A stretch of DNA of 57,074 bases from Verrucomicrobiaceae bacterium. GTDB taxonomy: Bacteria; Verrucomicrobiota; Verrucomicrobiia; Chthoniobacterales; Terrimicrobiaceae. The DNA lies in assembly GCA_007280915.1 (NCBI GenBank), contig QYQL01000035.1:1-57074 (forward strand), read 5' to 3'. The translations under genes were made by a program, and so were the position numbers. Below, piece by piece: positions 8,001 through 12,342 of this stretch (positions are counted from its first letter, which is position 1; each line of letters starts with the position of its first letter). The notes under the pieces were generated by a model. The model did not search any database. It was not told the DNA's origin and saw nothing but the letters and a program-made list of their open reading frames with translations.

Positions 8001-8250
8001 TGCCCAGCTCGAATCCGCGATTGACTCGGCGGATTCCGCTGCCGCTGGAAGATTTGCCCATACGCTCAAAGGTTCGAGCGCCAACATGGGAGGGGAAGCT
8101 TTCAGCCGGATCGCCGCACAAATGCAGGATGCCGGCAAGCGGGGGGATTTGGCGCTCCTGAAGGAACTTCTCCCCGAGGCCCGCTCCGCGTTGCGGGCTT
8201 TGATCTCCGCCATAGAACAGGAGTTTCATACGCCAGGCGGACCGCATTGA
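5056..8250 (+). CDS. Hybrid histidine kinase REC-PAS-PAS-HisKA-HATPase-REC-REC-HPt
   Basis: 1064 aa from ATG 5056, chosen because the receiver begins MDEVLRILFIEDSPAD; the ORF extends to 4939. Domain order: receiver (Asp57 in SDYALPDYDG), PAS (about 140-255), PAS (about 265-385), HisKA with His423 in NMSHEIRTPMNG, HATPase with NLIGNAIKF, DTGIGI and GGTGLGLAI. Two receivers follow (Asp714 in LSDMHMPGMDG; Asp857 in LMDCQMPIMDG with KP), then a C-terminal HPt with His1002 in AHTLKGSSANMG. All phosphotransfer residues are present, so one polypeptide holds a full His-Asp-His relay. No transmembrane segment is seen. No dedicated output regulator lies next to it; the leftward regulator at 1384-1830 is a possible final acceptor. 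A strong hairpin follows the stop. Confidence 0.93.
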   Translation: MDEVLRILFIEDSPADVKLAEHTLRHERIEFVSQCVQNTEGLTLALQEFLPDVIISDYALPDYDGLSALRLCKKARPRVPFILHTAALKDEAAVFCIRAGADDYVLKQNLEHLPFAVKNALERRRAQEAAQVAHEKLVLLSRAVEQSTASIIITNVSGIIEYVNPKFLQVTGYTLEETIGQNPRILKSGRQTKEFYTEMWRKITAGEEWSGEVENRRKNGEIYIEAVTIYPIRDELGAVTHFLAVKEDITARRHAEERAASESTLLSELITAIPDRIYFKDTRYRFLKVNDAVLRGFGRNLSEVIGHTDMELGPSESANKSLADDRFVIETGEALIGIEEQEVSPDGRPRWYSTTKVPLRDSTGKIIGLMGITRDVTNLKTTENRLRVSNAQLKDSLARSRELAEKADSANRAKSEFLANMSHEIRTPMNGVIGMTDLLIESGLGAEQMEYAEAIHSCGDTLLSLINDILDFSKVEAGQLVLENLDFDIRSTLYDAVEILAFKAQEKGLDMACLIADDVPKFLKGDPGRLRQILFNLIGNAIKFTATGGVSVHVDCVGQTDSSAALRFSVVDTGIGIPSEKQSVIFSKFTQADTSTTREFGGTGLGLAICRQLVHLFRGEIGVTSQEGEGATFYFTAEFEKVSGAAAESPAHEADLSGVRVLVADDFKTNRVLIARLLTRWGCRYSEAEDAVSALAMLRLAAREGDPYVAVLSDMHMPGMDGAELGRQIKADEEIKSARLVMLTSIGKRGDAERLAGVGFSGYLPKPIRPGLLRKCLALVLGREEAKGADHHLITRHTVAETSRRKLRVLVAEDNSTNRIVAIKMLEKLGHTADAVGNGKEAVESLKRLPYDIVLMDCQMPIMDGFDATRAIRLPDSGVRNHSIPIIAITAHAMKGDRELCLETGMNDYLSKPVNPRELAAALERWGPKGSHFGDPQPAPHPPAGESLKVFDLEGFIERAMDDRSLAAEIVEAFLADTPPLYAQLESAIDSADSAAAGRFAHTLKGSSANMGGEAFSRIAAQMQDAGKRGDLALLKELLPEARSALRALISAIEQEFHTPGGPH

Positions 8251-8277
8251 GGCGGTTCGTTTTTGCGAATAAATATT

Positions 8278-8311
8278 GCAGGCCACTGCGACGAGCGCCG
8301 CAGTGGCCTGC
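8278..8311 (+). terminator. Strong hairpin, probable bidirectional terminator
   Basis: A perfect 13-bp stem, gcaggccactgcg (8278-8290) pairing with cgcagtggcctgc (8299-8311), closes an 8-nt loop 28 bases after the hybrid-kinase stop. The plus side is followed by tgttcccc (weak T content). On the minus strand the stem is followed by an A/T-rich tract, so it may also stop transcripts from rsmH. The rest of the gap (8312-8494) shows no gene. Confidence 0.65.
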
Positions 8312-8494
8312 TGTTCCCCCCAGAACAAGGTTTATATAGCAGGCTTCATGCCAATATTTGGCTGAGTCTTTTCAGAAAAGCAATCTCAGAGGCAGATGGA
8401 GGGACCGCGCTGTCCGGCCCGTTGCTCGTCCACGGACGACAGCGGGCGGAAAAGCCAAAACATCCTTCGGGGGATCCGCCCTGCTTACACCGCT

Positions 8495-9649
8495 CTACCG
8501 AATCGCCCAGCGGAGTTTTGCCGAGGAGGCGCGAGGGTTCGCGCGGCACTCTTCCGGCGACGGACGTGTGACGTTGTCGGCGATGCCGGAGTAAATTCCT
8601 GTGCGGAATCCGGATTGGAATGCCTTTTTGACGCGCCGGTCCTCGCCGGAGTGGAACGTGAGGATTGCGACCCGTCCGCCGGTCTTCAGACAGCCGGGCA
8701 GGTTGCGGAGAAGTGCGTCGAGAGCGGAGAATTCCTCGTTGACCTCGATGCGGATGGCTTGAAAGACGCGTCGCACGGATTTTTCAATGTCGTCAGCCGG
8801 CATGGATCCGAGGGCGGAACGAACCGCATTTGTGAGATCGGTGGTGAGTGCGAAATCCTTCCCGGCCAGGGCGGAAGCGATTTTCCCGGCATGGGGCTCA
8901 TCGGCATTTTCCCGGAGGAGGGTTTCCAGTGCGGGGGATTGGATCTTTTTCAGAAATCCCGCTGCCGAGAGCCCGCGCTGAGGGTTCATCCGCATGTCGA
9001 GCGGCCCGGGTGTCTTTGTCGAGAATCCTCGGCCCGGGGTGTCGAGTTGCATCGACGAGACACCGAGATCGGCGAGGAGGCAGTCTGCTCCCGCAATCCT
9101 CTCCGCGACCATCGCAGCCGGCAAACCTGCGAAGTTGGATTTTCTGATCCGCAATGTTTGGGAGCCGAAACCAAGCGAACTCAGCCGGGCTTTTGCTCTC
9201 GGCAACTCCACCGGATCCACATCGAGCCCGAGCAGGAGACCGCCGGGCTGAATGAGCGGGAGCAGCGCCGAGGCGTGCCCGCCATGGCCGAGGGTGCAAT
9301 CCACAACAGTATCGCCCGGCTGCGGGCGCAGGACCTCAAGAATCTCCTTCACCATAATGGGCACATGTGACCCGGCGGGAGTTTTTCCCGAGGCCAGAAC
9401 TTTCGCGACGGTTTCCGGCCGGCTCTCGAGTTCCTTGTATTTTTCCTCGAACCGGCGCGGGTATTTTCCGGAGTAGCGCGGCCGGCGGCGATGAGCGGAC
9501 GGTTGCCCAATCCCGTCATCTGCTTTTCCCTGCGAGCCCTGCGATTGCCTCGCTCGCTCCCGCGAGTCTCCCCCTTCGGGCTGCTTGCAGCAGGCTACCC
9601 GGCTGGCTCCCGCCAGCACGTGTTTTGCGTGAGGAATCTCCGGACTCAA
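8495..9649 (-). CDS. rsmH: 16S rRNA (cytosine1402-N4)-methyltransferase RsmH
   Basis: SAM-dependent methyltransferase that makes m4Cm1402 in 16S rRNA. The core shows motif I VVDCTLGHGGHA, the LLADLGVSSMQLD motif, the GFSTKTPGPLDMRM motif and the C-terminal LTFHSGEDRRVKKAF motif, all characteristic of RsmH/MraW. The ORF opens at TTG 9649, giving 384 aa against roughly 300-320 for the family. The extra 70-90 residues contain a basic stretch RRRPRYSGKYPRRFEEKYKE that looks like a real extension, preceded by about 30 residues encoded by a palindromic repeat (9531-9622) that look non-protein. The only ATG before the core is MVKEIL, inside the core domain. The true start is therefore uncertain: TTG 9649, or a non-ATG codon after the repeat. 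The TTG overlaps the stop of the upstream MazG-type gene, suggesting coupling. Confidence 0.9.
   Translation of the reverse strand: MSPEIPHAKHVLAGASRVACCKQPEGGDSRERARQSQGSQGKADDGIGQPSAHRRRPRYSGKYPRRFEEKYKELESRPETVAKVLASGKTPAGSHVPIMVKEILEVLRPQPGDTVVDCTLGHGGHASALLPLIQPGGLLLGLDVDPVELPRAKARLSSLGFGSQTLRIRKSNFAGLPAAMVAERIAGADCLLADLGVSSMQLDTPGRGFSTKTPGPLDMRMNPQRGLSAAGFLKKIQSPALETLLRENADEPHAGKIASALAGKDFALTTDLTNAVRSALGSMPADDIEKSVRRVFQAIRIEVNEEFSALDALLRNLPGCLKTGGRVAILTFHSGEDRRVKKAFQSGFRTGIYSGIADNVTRPSPEECRANPRASSAKLRWAIR
9531..9622. repeat. Palindromic repeat cluster inside the 5' end of rsmH
   Basis: Several GC-rich hairpins lie in tandem: ctcgc-tccc-gcgag (9553-9566) and gctggc-tccc-gccagc (9602-9617), both with the same tccc loop, and a smaller ctgc-tt-gcag between them. 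The central string cccttcgggct is the reverse complement of the agcccgaaggg string in the element at 1-109, so the two probably belong to one repeat family. If rsmH starts at 9649, this element is translated as about residues 10-40. Confidence 0.5.
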
Positions 9650-9996
9650 AGCTCGTTGTATTTTTTGTTCGAGCCCCGGGCCTTGGCGACCGGGTAGCGC
9701 GCCTCATTCCGTGCGAGCTTCCTTCGGATGGCTTCCGGCAGGCTCACTTCGCAATTGTCTGCGAGCTCGAAGAGGAGGATCGCGATGTCGGCCATCTCGG
9801 AGGCGAGTTCATCCCTGCGGTCGGCGACCCGCTGGTCCGACTGCTCCGGGCTCTGCCAGACAAAATGCTGGAGCAGTTCTCCCGCCTCGGCGGTGATGGC
9901 CACGGCGAGTTCCTTGGGATTGTGGAATTGTCTCCAGTCCCGCGCGTCACGAAAGGCGCGGATCTCGGCTGTCAGGGATTCGATGCTGGTCGGCAT
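9646..9996 (-). CDS. MazG-like nucleotide pyrophosphohydrolase (dCTPase/RS21-C6 type)
   Basis: 116 aa, an all-alpha NTP pyrophosphohydrolase. Visible are EAGELLQHF (the first acidic metal-binding helix, reading E-x-x-E) and DELASEMADIAILLFELAD (second acidic helix). A WRQFHNPKELA segment precedes them, as in the DCTPP1/RS21-C6 family. The expected activity is hydrolysis of (d)NTPs, often dCTP or modified pyrimidine nucleotides, to the monophosphate and PPi. The size matches the single-domain family. It ends by overlapping the TTG start of rsmH; the upp gene lies 148 bases upstream on the same strand. Exact substrate cannot be inferred. Confidence 0.85.
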   Translation of the reverse strand: MPTSIESLTAEIRAFRDARDWRQFHNPKELAVAITAEAGELLQHFVWQSPEQSDQRVADRRDELASEMADIAILLFELADNCEVSLPEAIRRKLARNEARYPVAKARGSNKKYNEL

Positions 9997-10144
9997 GTGG
10001 AATATCCTAGGCGGAGGCGGGCTTCACCGACAACCTTCGAGTCCGTTTCACGGTCACAGGAAGAGGAAAGGAAGCGAGCAGGCCTATACCCTGTGGACAG
10101 GATTGTTTGCGCAAAAACCGGTTTGATCTGATTCCGCTTGTTGC

Positions 10145-10768
10145 TCACGTGCCGAAATACCTGTCCCCCGCATCCCCGAGTCCTGGCAAGATATAGGCTT
10201 TGTCGTTGAGTTCCGCATCCAGCGCTGCCAGGAAAACCGGGACATCCGGGTGACGGGATGTGAAAAGCTCGACGCCCGGCCTCGCGCCGATGAGGGCGAG
10301 CACCCGCAGGCATTTGGCTCCGGCGGCCTTTAATTTATCCACCGCATCTGCGGCGCTCTGGCCGGTTGCAAGCATTGGGTCCACGAGAAAAATGTCCGCC
10401 CCCTCGAGCGGCGGGGTCTTGAAGTAATAGCTTTGCGGTTCGAATGTGCTCTCATCGCGGTAGAGCCCGACGTGTCCGACCCGGGCCTCGGGAAAAACCT
10501 GGAGCAATGCCTCCGCCATGCCCAGGCCGGCGCGGAGGATCGGGATGATCACGAGCGGCCGGGCAAATTCATGCCCGGCGCAACAGGCGAGGGGAGTTTG
10601 CAACGGAAACTCCCTCAACGCCAGATTGCGGGATGCCTCAACGCCCACAATGACCGCCAGCTCCCGCAATGCCCGGCGGAAATCCCCGAGGGAAGTCTCC
10701 CTGTTCCTGAGGCGGGCGACTCCGACTTTCACCAACGAATGCTCCACAACATGACACCCTGAAATCAT
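10145..10768 (-). CDS. upp: Uracil phosphoribosyltransferase
   Basis: 207 aa, the normal size for Upp. It makes UMP from uracil and PRPP. Family motifs: IIPILRAGLGM, GHVGLYRDE, the PRPP loop VDPMLATGQSA (D-P-M-L-A-T-G) and the C-terminal uracil-binding LPGLGDAGDRYFGT. It is a single cytosolic protein. It sits between the MazG-type gene and the porin on the same strand, separated by 148 and 173 bases, so it likely has its own promoter. Confidence 0.95.
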   Translation of the reverse strand: MISGCHVVEHSLVKVGVARLRNRETSLGDFRRALRELAVIVGVEASRNLALREFPLQTPLACCAGHEFARPLVIIPILRAGLGMAEALLQVFPEARVGHVGLYRDESTFEPQSYYFKTPPLEGADIFLVDPMLATGQSAADAVDKLKAAGAKCLRVLALIGARPGVELFTSRHPDVPVFLAALDAELNDKAYILPGLGDAGDRYFGT

Positions 10769-10941
10769 GGAGGACAGGTCTAAGCAAAATCCCGCCGCAT
10801 GCCCAGAACCTTCGCGTCGATTTGGACGGTCGCTATACTACGCCATCCTTCGGTAACGCCTTTGCGACTGGGAGCGCGGCTTAAAGCTGGAATTGACGAG
10901 TCAACCCGGCAACATCCGAAAAGCGATATCCAGCTCTGCTT
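10769..10941. promoter_or_regulatory. Gap between porin and upp; possible upp promoter
   Basis: Reading the minus strand, a ttgact hexamer near 10900 sits in the small palindrome ttga-ctcg-tcaa, and a tatagc hexamer lies nearer upp. Spacing is not ideal for a single sigma-70 promoter. No clear terminator for the porin is seen. Confidence 0.25.
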
Positions 10942-12342
10942 TCAGAACAGCAGGGTGAACCGCATGGTCATCGCCCAGGCTCCGCTGAGCGATGAGTCGG
11001 CCCCCGGGGTCGGGATGTAGCTCAGCGTGGGCTGGATGAAGGCCCCACCGTAAAGGTGCGCCTGGTAGTAGCACTGAAACATCAGCTCGCTCGAACGGTT
11101 GAAGATATTCGGGTTGAGCCATGACCACGCCATGCCGAATCCTATCGAGTCCGCGGGCCGGTTGGGCACGAGCCCGAAGCCGGTGATCCCGCCGCCGAAA
11201 TACTGGTTCACGGGAAGCGTCTCCGAGTTGTTGACGCCGAACTGGTAGAAGATCGAGATCGAGGAATTCGGGCCCGTTGTGGATGCGGGGATCACGATCT
11301 TCGATTTGCCGTCCTTGTCGCGCGTGGTCGCCGGTCCCTGCTGTGCCGACCTGCCCCAGACCCGCTGCCCGCCAAACAGGTAGAATCCGCCGGTCCCGTT
11401 CTGCTGGATCGCACCCGGCCCGGTGAGAACTCCGGTTTGATACCAGAGGCCGGCCCCGAATTGCCCTGGGTATTTGTCGGCGATCACCCAGTCGACTCCG
11501 GCTTCCCAGATGTTAAAATAATAGCCGTTGAACTGCGGGGCTGTCAGGCCGGTCTGGACGCCGTTCGCGAGGTTGCCGTCGTAGAACCCGTAGTTGATGT
11601 AGGAGTTTTTTGTCGGGGTCACCGTGACCGTGAGGCCGTTCGCGGAGTTGTAGTATCCGGGCAGCGAGCCGAGCATCGTGGGGTTCACGAAGATCGGGGT
11701 GTAAAGGAGACCGCTCACGGACGGGATCTCGAGGCCGCCTTCCTTCGTGGTGACCGGGCGGCAGACGTTGTTGAAGTCATACGTGGGCACGCTGCGGCCG
11801 ACGCGGATGATGAGGCGGTTGTCGAAAAGCTTTTGGCGATACCAGGCCTGATACAGCTCCGAGCGATCGAGCGGGGGCAGGCCGGGGAGGCCGTTGTAGC
11901 CCTGCACGCTGCCGGCCTGGCCGTTCGTGTTTTGGCCGTTGAACTGCAGAAACTGGACGCCGAAATCCGCGCCCTTCCATCCGATGAGCTTTTCCGCGTC
12001 AATCTCCAGCGAGGCGATGAGGAGGCTGTTCCAGCTTGACGCTCCGGGCTGCGCGCCTCCGGACATCAGGATGTTGTAATCCGCCAACCAGATCCCACCG
12101 AGCTTCACGCCCGTGTCCGGCGACAGGCGGGTCAGGCTTTGCAAAAATCCGTTGCCGGTTTCCGCATTCACGGCACCCGGGTTTCCGCTGATGGCGGCGG
12201 GCACACGGGAGACGATTTCCCAAGGCGTCGGGTTGTTGGCGGGTTTCGTCGGCTCGGGATCCGCAGCAACAAGCGTGGCAACCGCCGCAAAAAACACGAG
12301 CGCCGGAAGGCAAACAGGAAGGCGGTGGAGAAGGGATTTCAT
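10942..12342 (-). CDS. Outer-membrane porin, carbohydrate-selective (OprB-like) type
   Basis: 466 aa from ATG 12342 (the ORF runs further upstream, but this ATG gives a clean signal peptide: MKSLLHRLP followed by a hydrophobic LPALVFFAAVATLVAA core). The mature part is rich in Gly, Asn, Tyr and Trp with alternating beta-strand pattern and ends MRFTLLF, with the terminal Phe used by the BAM machinery. GVKLGGIWLADYN and the ELYQAWYRQKLF / RVGRSVPTYDFN segments match the OprB porin family. Expected role: passive uptake of sugars or other small solutes across the outer membrane. It is divergent from the amidohydrolase at 12574, so it may admit that pathway's substrate. Confidence 0.82.
   Translation of the reverse strand: MKSLLHRLPVCLPALVFFAAVATLVAADPEPTKPANNPTPWEIVSRVPAAISGNPGAVNAETGNGFLQSLTRLSPDTGVKLGGIWLADYNILMSGGAQPGASSWNSLLIASLEIDAEKLIGWKGADFGVQFLQFNGQNTNGQAGSVQGYNGLPGLPPLDRSELYQAWYRQKLFDNRLIIRVGRSVPTYDFNNVCRPVTTKEGGLEIPSVSGLLYTPIFVNPTMLGSLPGYYNSANGLTVTVTPTKNSYINYGFYDGNLANGVQTGLTAPQFNGYYFNIWEAGVDWVIADKYPGQFGAGLWYQTGVLTGPGAIQQNGTGGFYLFGGQRVWGRSAQQGPATTRDKDGKSKIVIPASTTGPNSSISIFYQFGVNNSETLPVNQYFGGGITGFGLVPNRPADSIGFGMAWSWLNPNIFNRSSELMFQCYYQAHLYGGAFIQPTLSYIPTPGADSSLSGAWAMTMRFTLLF

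Follow-up and report, generated by a model that had tools for sequence, protein, structure and literature searches.

The window is the whole stretch of DNA analysed here, 57,074 nucleotides of a Verrucomicrobiaceae bacterium. Its reverse strand carries a reading frame for a predicted RNA methyltransferase of the RsmH/MraW type, which begins on the stop codon of a mazG-like gene and holds, ahead of its conserved part, a palindromic repeat in frame (Table 1). The ORF on the other side of the methyltransferase gene is one that we take, from its sequence, to be histidine-kinase-like.

Table 1 Features of the methyltransferase locus, in positions of the window.
Feature	Position	Strand	Basis and remarks
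mazG-like gene	9646..9996	-	PF12643, E 4.7e-14; TGA overlaps the methyltransferase start as TTGA, 9649-9646
TTG start codon, coupled to the mazG-like stop (predicted)	9647..9649	-	homologous TTG/GTG in 15/16 same-family relatives
In-frame insert, ~138 nt (46 codons)	9506..9643	-	L008/L013 alignments; absent from relatives; junctions uncertain by ~16 nt
Core (80 bp) of the palindromic repeat, a dispersed family	9545..9624	-	alignment, covariance model, BLAST copies
Conserved basic N-terminal motif RRRPRYSGKYPRRFEEKYKE	9431..9490	-	residues 54-73; ancestral to the gene; 51/51 sequences
RsmH/MraW-type methyltransferase domain	8504..9370	-	PF01795, residues 94-382, E 6.2e-67
Whole ORF, second RsmH-type protein	8495..9649	-	384 aa including the translated insert; ORF list, TIGR00006

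The window protein scores 207.2 bits against TIGR00006, above the curated cut-off of 154.3, and by sequence shares its domain with RsmH/MraW, the 16S rRNA m4C1402 methyltransferase (TIGR00006, PF01795). The sequence-only reading had called the gene rsmH, which is right as to family, the gene being the second copy in the genome. The other RsmH gene is located on contig C134 (C134:15840-16751), where it scores 322 bits against 227 for the window copy, shares 43% identity with it and adjoins an ORF that, to judge from its sequence, is presumably MraZ-like. The window copy is flanked instead by the mazG-like gene and another ORF, outside the mraZ/fts setting of RsmH. The window gene is thus, on sequence grounds, a paralogue of rsmH, which differs from RsmH/MraW in being a second copy apart from the other RsmH gene and in carrying the N-terminal extension RRxRYxGxxPxxF..KYKE. 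Residues Arg-55, Arg-56, Arg-58, Tyr-59, Gly-61, Pro-64, Phe-67 and Lys-70 to Glu-73 of this extension are invariant in 51/51 aligned orthologues (50 of 77 reference rows plus the window), as are many positions of the methyltransferase domain, and the basic stretch behind the repeat, earlier suspected to be real protein, is borne out by these residues. At a threshold of 60% identity, 27/58 genomes searched, the own genome included, have an orthologue, and the named relatives are Verrucomicrobiota, several of them labelled Spartobacteria or Chthoniobacterales. Comparison with the same-genus relative G002 gives a dN of 0.17 and a dS of 1.27 over 331 codons of the rest of the gene. These rates indicate constraint and purifying selection on the gene; being a pairwise value, they give no age for the insert. 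A second RsmH-type protein with the basic N-terminal motif is conserved in Verrucomicrobiota besides the other RsmH (L021-L046, L098-L177), and its gene is often coupled to a mazG-like gene. A literature search for RsmH named together with Verrucomicrobi- returned nothing.

The frame is open from TTG 9649 to 8495. Among its first 60 codons the in-frame start-type codons are TTG 1, ATT 5, GTG 11 (within the repeat), CTG 12 and ATT 47, and the scan confirms the earlier statement that ATG is absent between TTG 9649 and the methyltransferase core, none being found in these 60 codons. The 53 codons leading from TTG 9649 to the invariant motif are mostly palindromic repeat, and the segment between repeat and motif contains no in-frame ATG, GTG or TTG. 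Since the motif is invariant in 51/51 sequences the protein must begin 5' of it, and since the sole standard starts located there are TTG 1 and GTG 11, any standard start translates most of the repeat.

The relatives indicate which start is used. In 15/16 same-family relatives (the genomes with an orthologue, the window's own left out) the gene starts with TTG (12) or GTG (3) overlapping the mazG-like TGA, lacks the repeat and places the start 8-12 codons ahead of the motif; the coupled TTG/GTG is missing from one relative, G014. The mazG-like protein of the relatives ends in ..GSN(K/R)KY(N/S)(E/Q)L (..GSNKKYNEL), likewise overlapping the next gene. A wider survey of 105 rows from 107 loci (L105 and L155 left out) found 40 mazG-coupled rows, a number that includes the window and in which at least two loci figure twice. 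Start and motif are 54 codons apart in the window and 8-24 codons apart in the remaining 39. An empty site is provided by the same-genus G002, 75% identical, in which TTG SEGIPH is followed directly by RRRPRYSGK. The gene start of the window is thus, as predicted from these alignments, the ancestral coupled TTG, and the sharing of this start by repeat-free relatives means that no rare downstream start is required.

A rare start behind the repeat, which the sequence-only reading had offered as the other possibility, would fall late in the repeat or after it, at ATT 9511 (MGQPSAHRRRP...), and would leave the repeat as a 5' untranslated, possibly regulatory segment. Such a start at codon 47 is in frame, and the conserved motif would still be part of the product. 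Passages of Di Nocera et al. (2013, PMC3733652) also warn that, with a translation start farther downstream, many of the REPs placed at the N-terminus of genes may be extragenic. The lack of ATG, GTG or TTG between repeat and motif and the coupled TTG/GTG kept by relatives without repeat speak against it, as does the insert itself, which is stop-free and keeps the frame, neither being required of an untranslated segment. ATT 9511 is thus without support and translation from it is improbable.

The repeat occupies codons ~3-48 of the window ORF, and the earlier impression that the first ~40 codons are largely hairpin repeat is upheld by the BLAST copies and by covariation of the stems. Its borders were placed with two long copies of the element. 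Local alignment to L008 spans 9644-9506 and to L013 9644-9522, both starting at 9644, the first base past TTGAG. The left flank SPEIPH is similar both to the native SEGIPH/SEETPH found in relatives and to the ends of other element copies, and the right end of the insert resembles L008 as far as 9506, so that 9521-9643 or 9491-9628 are alternatives, every version being frame-preserving. Three versions were weighed: 123 nt after codon 2 (native MSDDGIGQPSAH), 138 nt after codon 2 (native MSQPSAH) and 138 nt after codon 7 (native MSPEIPH). A length of 138 nt is preferred over 123 nt, since its removal would leave the spacing seen in G002, the position being left open. A repeat finder run on 9440-9700 reported neither direct nor inverted repeat at its thresholds.

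These comparisons support an in-frame insertion of the repeat behind the coupled TTG, as deduced from sequence. The alignment with repeat-free relatives, which had been proposed beforehand as one way to check the matter, puts the start at the coupled TTG/GTG with ~138 nt of insert as extra sequence, and the same coupled codons in those relatives agree with the earlier option of a repeat lying in frame behind a TTG coupled to the mazG-type stop. That either option would be unusual was too strong a statement for in-frame insertion, passages of PMC3733652 already describing in-frame palindromic repeats. An assembly or binning artefact, through misjoining of a repeat copy into the gene or an indel that hides an ATG start, would find some footing in the draft state of the genome (190 contigs, two of which, C142 and C23, seem to stop close to a copy of the repeat). 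The sequences on either side of the insert are parts of one gene, correctly ordered and in frame, and most same-family relatives also have no ATG at the start, so that there is none for a corrected sequencing error to restore; an artefact is thus hardly credible.

The repeat belongs to a dispersed family. BLAST locates it at 17 places in the genome including the window, the best of the 16 others being 88% identical over 81 bp (E 9.9e-23), and a covariance model gives 13 matches in the genome at E<=0.01. The match of the model at 9545-9624 has an E of 7.1e-19, a value that is not independent because the window copy is one of its 16 training sequences. Matches are found in 20/26 family genomes at E<=1e-3; across the phylum, in 145 genomes at E<=1e-6 with stricter filters, they are found in 2 only, the window's own genome and another genome of this family. 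Compensatory changes among copies affect 8/21 predicted pairs, and it is this covariation, not the local fold energy, that supports the formation of hairpins. The search of 8200-11000 against Rfam gave no match at E<=1. Several copies sit amid short tandem repeats. A longer composite form of ~210 bp (L008:1486-1697, L013:1486-1697) contains a mid-segment of ~60 nt that is absent from the window copy. GTAG is present in 27/38 full-length copies, one base ahead of a CTGCC..GGCAG stem, inside the larger composite and not at the end of a single palindrome. Stop-free antisense frames number 35, 31 and 35 of 38 full-length copies and stop-free sense frames 13, 15 and 23, with ~58% in shuffled sequence; antisense openness does not explain the window copy, whose reading frame is a sense one. 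Around 33 Y1_Tnp (RAYT) loci from family genomes no full core copy lies within ~1.5 kb, two weak partial core matches (in L236 and L239) resemble a hairpin of another kind, and no mobilising enzyme for the repeat was identified among these loci.

Folded as a single strand, the 171-nt region shows no unusual stability for a sequence of this composition (z -1.05 against shuffled sequences). This value bears on a regulatory role of the insert, in which hairpins behind the coupled start would lower or tune methyltransferase synthesis relative to the mazG-like protein, a role compatible with tolerated in-frame insertion and suggested by the position of conserved repeat hairpins directly behind the start codon. 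With a local fold no more stable than shuffled sequence, and with a long start-to-motif distance that none of the other 39 coupled rows shares and hence no sign of conserved regulation, such a role is unlikely. At the protein level, an AlphaFold2 model built on the 51-sequence alignment assigns residues 6-46 a pLDDT below 50 and most of the methyltransferase domain a pLDDT above 90. The conserved motif itself also scores low, with values below 50 at residues 57-64 and 66-75, so that low pLDDT alone is no proof of disorder. The simplest reading of the model is that the ~46 residues encoded by the insert would form a tolerated floppy tail.

Reading frames were followed over 75 unique repeat copies. 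A codon-usage test for intragenic copies proved too weak, leaving the window copy itself unflagged, and was replaced by frame reading with homologues. The clearest second case is a four-helix-bundle gene of the 23S_rRNA_IVP type (PF05635), interrupted in frame and mid-domain by an 81-nt insert (27 aa) in two species, on G000:C142 of the window's genome (L247) and on G002:C98 (L246). Nine homologues that span this site lack the insert; L261, a degraded copy, is among them. Similarly, a family-2 glycosyltransferase ORF of G004 (C19; L185/L213) carries the repeat in frame and is probably interrupted by it, as judged from sequence. The corresponding site in G016 (C60; L214) holds an unrelated stretch of ~120 aa, and thus represents an insertion-accepting site and not a clean empty site. 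There, and again farther along, the G016 protein carries a long repeat of another kind. In three pseudopilin-like ORFs with N_methyl matches (one in L007, two in L055) copies lie 5' of the prepilin motif and share its frame; the starts are putative, and the repeat-encoded leader would be cut off. The copy at L005:1168-1278 continues in frame into the start of an ORF for a solute-binding protein, just ahead of a signal-peptide-like stretch, and is ambiguous, a start 3' of the repeat being plausible. For the same reason L009, L203, L206 and L056 are not taken as translated copies. The L009 copy lies upstream of an ORF that we take to be TrpS-like. For most of the 75 copies the frames gave no recognizable host gene, and many of them probably are intergenic. 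As a tentative generalization for this verrucomicrobial family, the composite palindromic element may repeatedly enter coding sequences in frame and lengthen proteins of unrelated kinds (RNA methyltransferase, glycosyltransferase, four-helix-bundle protein and pseudopilin leaders), and could thereby be more than a filler between genes, namely a recurrent source of new peptide segments.

Two types of known element were compared with the repeat, in both cases as described in passages of Di Nocera et al. (2013, PMC3733652), the only source judged relevant, from titles and abstract openings, in a literature search that combined this phylum with palindromic repeats of REP type or lying in frame. 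GTAG/CGTC REPs are described there as short dispersed palindromes that often encode 20-30 aa, and more when clustered; 24 GTAG families are published, together with intragenic REPs of Opitutus. The window element is likewise short, palindromic and dispersed at many genomic places, which is what characterizes the REP superfamily. A GTAG stands ahead of a hairpin in its core, but inside the composite. In contrast, the GTAG/CGTC REP of those passages is a single unit of 20-40 bp and the window core an 80-bp composite of several hairpins, and none of the 33 RAYT loci scanned was flanked by the element, so that membership in the REP (GTAG) superfamily, based on shared features and not on published consensus sequences, is less certain. 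Rickettsia palindromic elements (RPE) are reported in PMC3733652 to sit in frame within genes whose proteins are probably functional, and to be tolerated there. Frame-preserving insertion of this type is observed in two conserved genes, the window gene and the four-helix-bundle gene, and the window element would share with RPE its way of working, tolerated in-frame insertion, a likeness drawn from the description of RPE in that paper and not from sequence; the host belongs to a different phylum with a different host biology. By analogy, the window element would work like RPE and the intragenic REPs of Opitutus.

Taken together, the locus very probably reflects a coupled paralogue start into which the repeat was inserted in frame, to be translated as a disordered and tolerated N-terminal tail. 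A ribosome ending the mazG-like gene at its TGA would re-initiate at the overlapping TTG. The family-specific REP-like palindromic element, its 80-bp core and flanking repeat amounting to ~138 nt, would have entered just behind this codon, in a short variable linker ahead of the conserved RRxRYxG motif, probably as a non-autonomous unit of REP/RPE type moved by some transposase. With a length divisible by three and no in-frame stop, the element would be translated as a long disordered tail of the enzyme, and the insertion would be tolerated, and presumably neutral, because the linker is non-conserved and outside the fold.

Copies of palindromic repeats at the N-terminus have previously been discounted, the annotated start being possibly wrong. 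Here the start is fixed by upstream coupling and by repeat-free relatives, making an unusually clear case of repeat turned into protein at the N-terminus. Translated repeats are known from a few other bacteria, and what is new is this clean example with an independently fixed start codon. The window gene thus provides a natural test of the spread of an element through coding DNA, and draws attention to the second conserved RsmH-type protein of Verrucomicrobiota.
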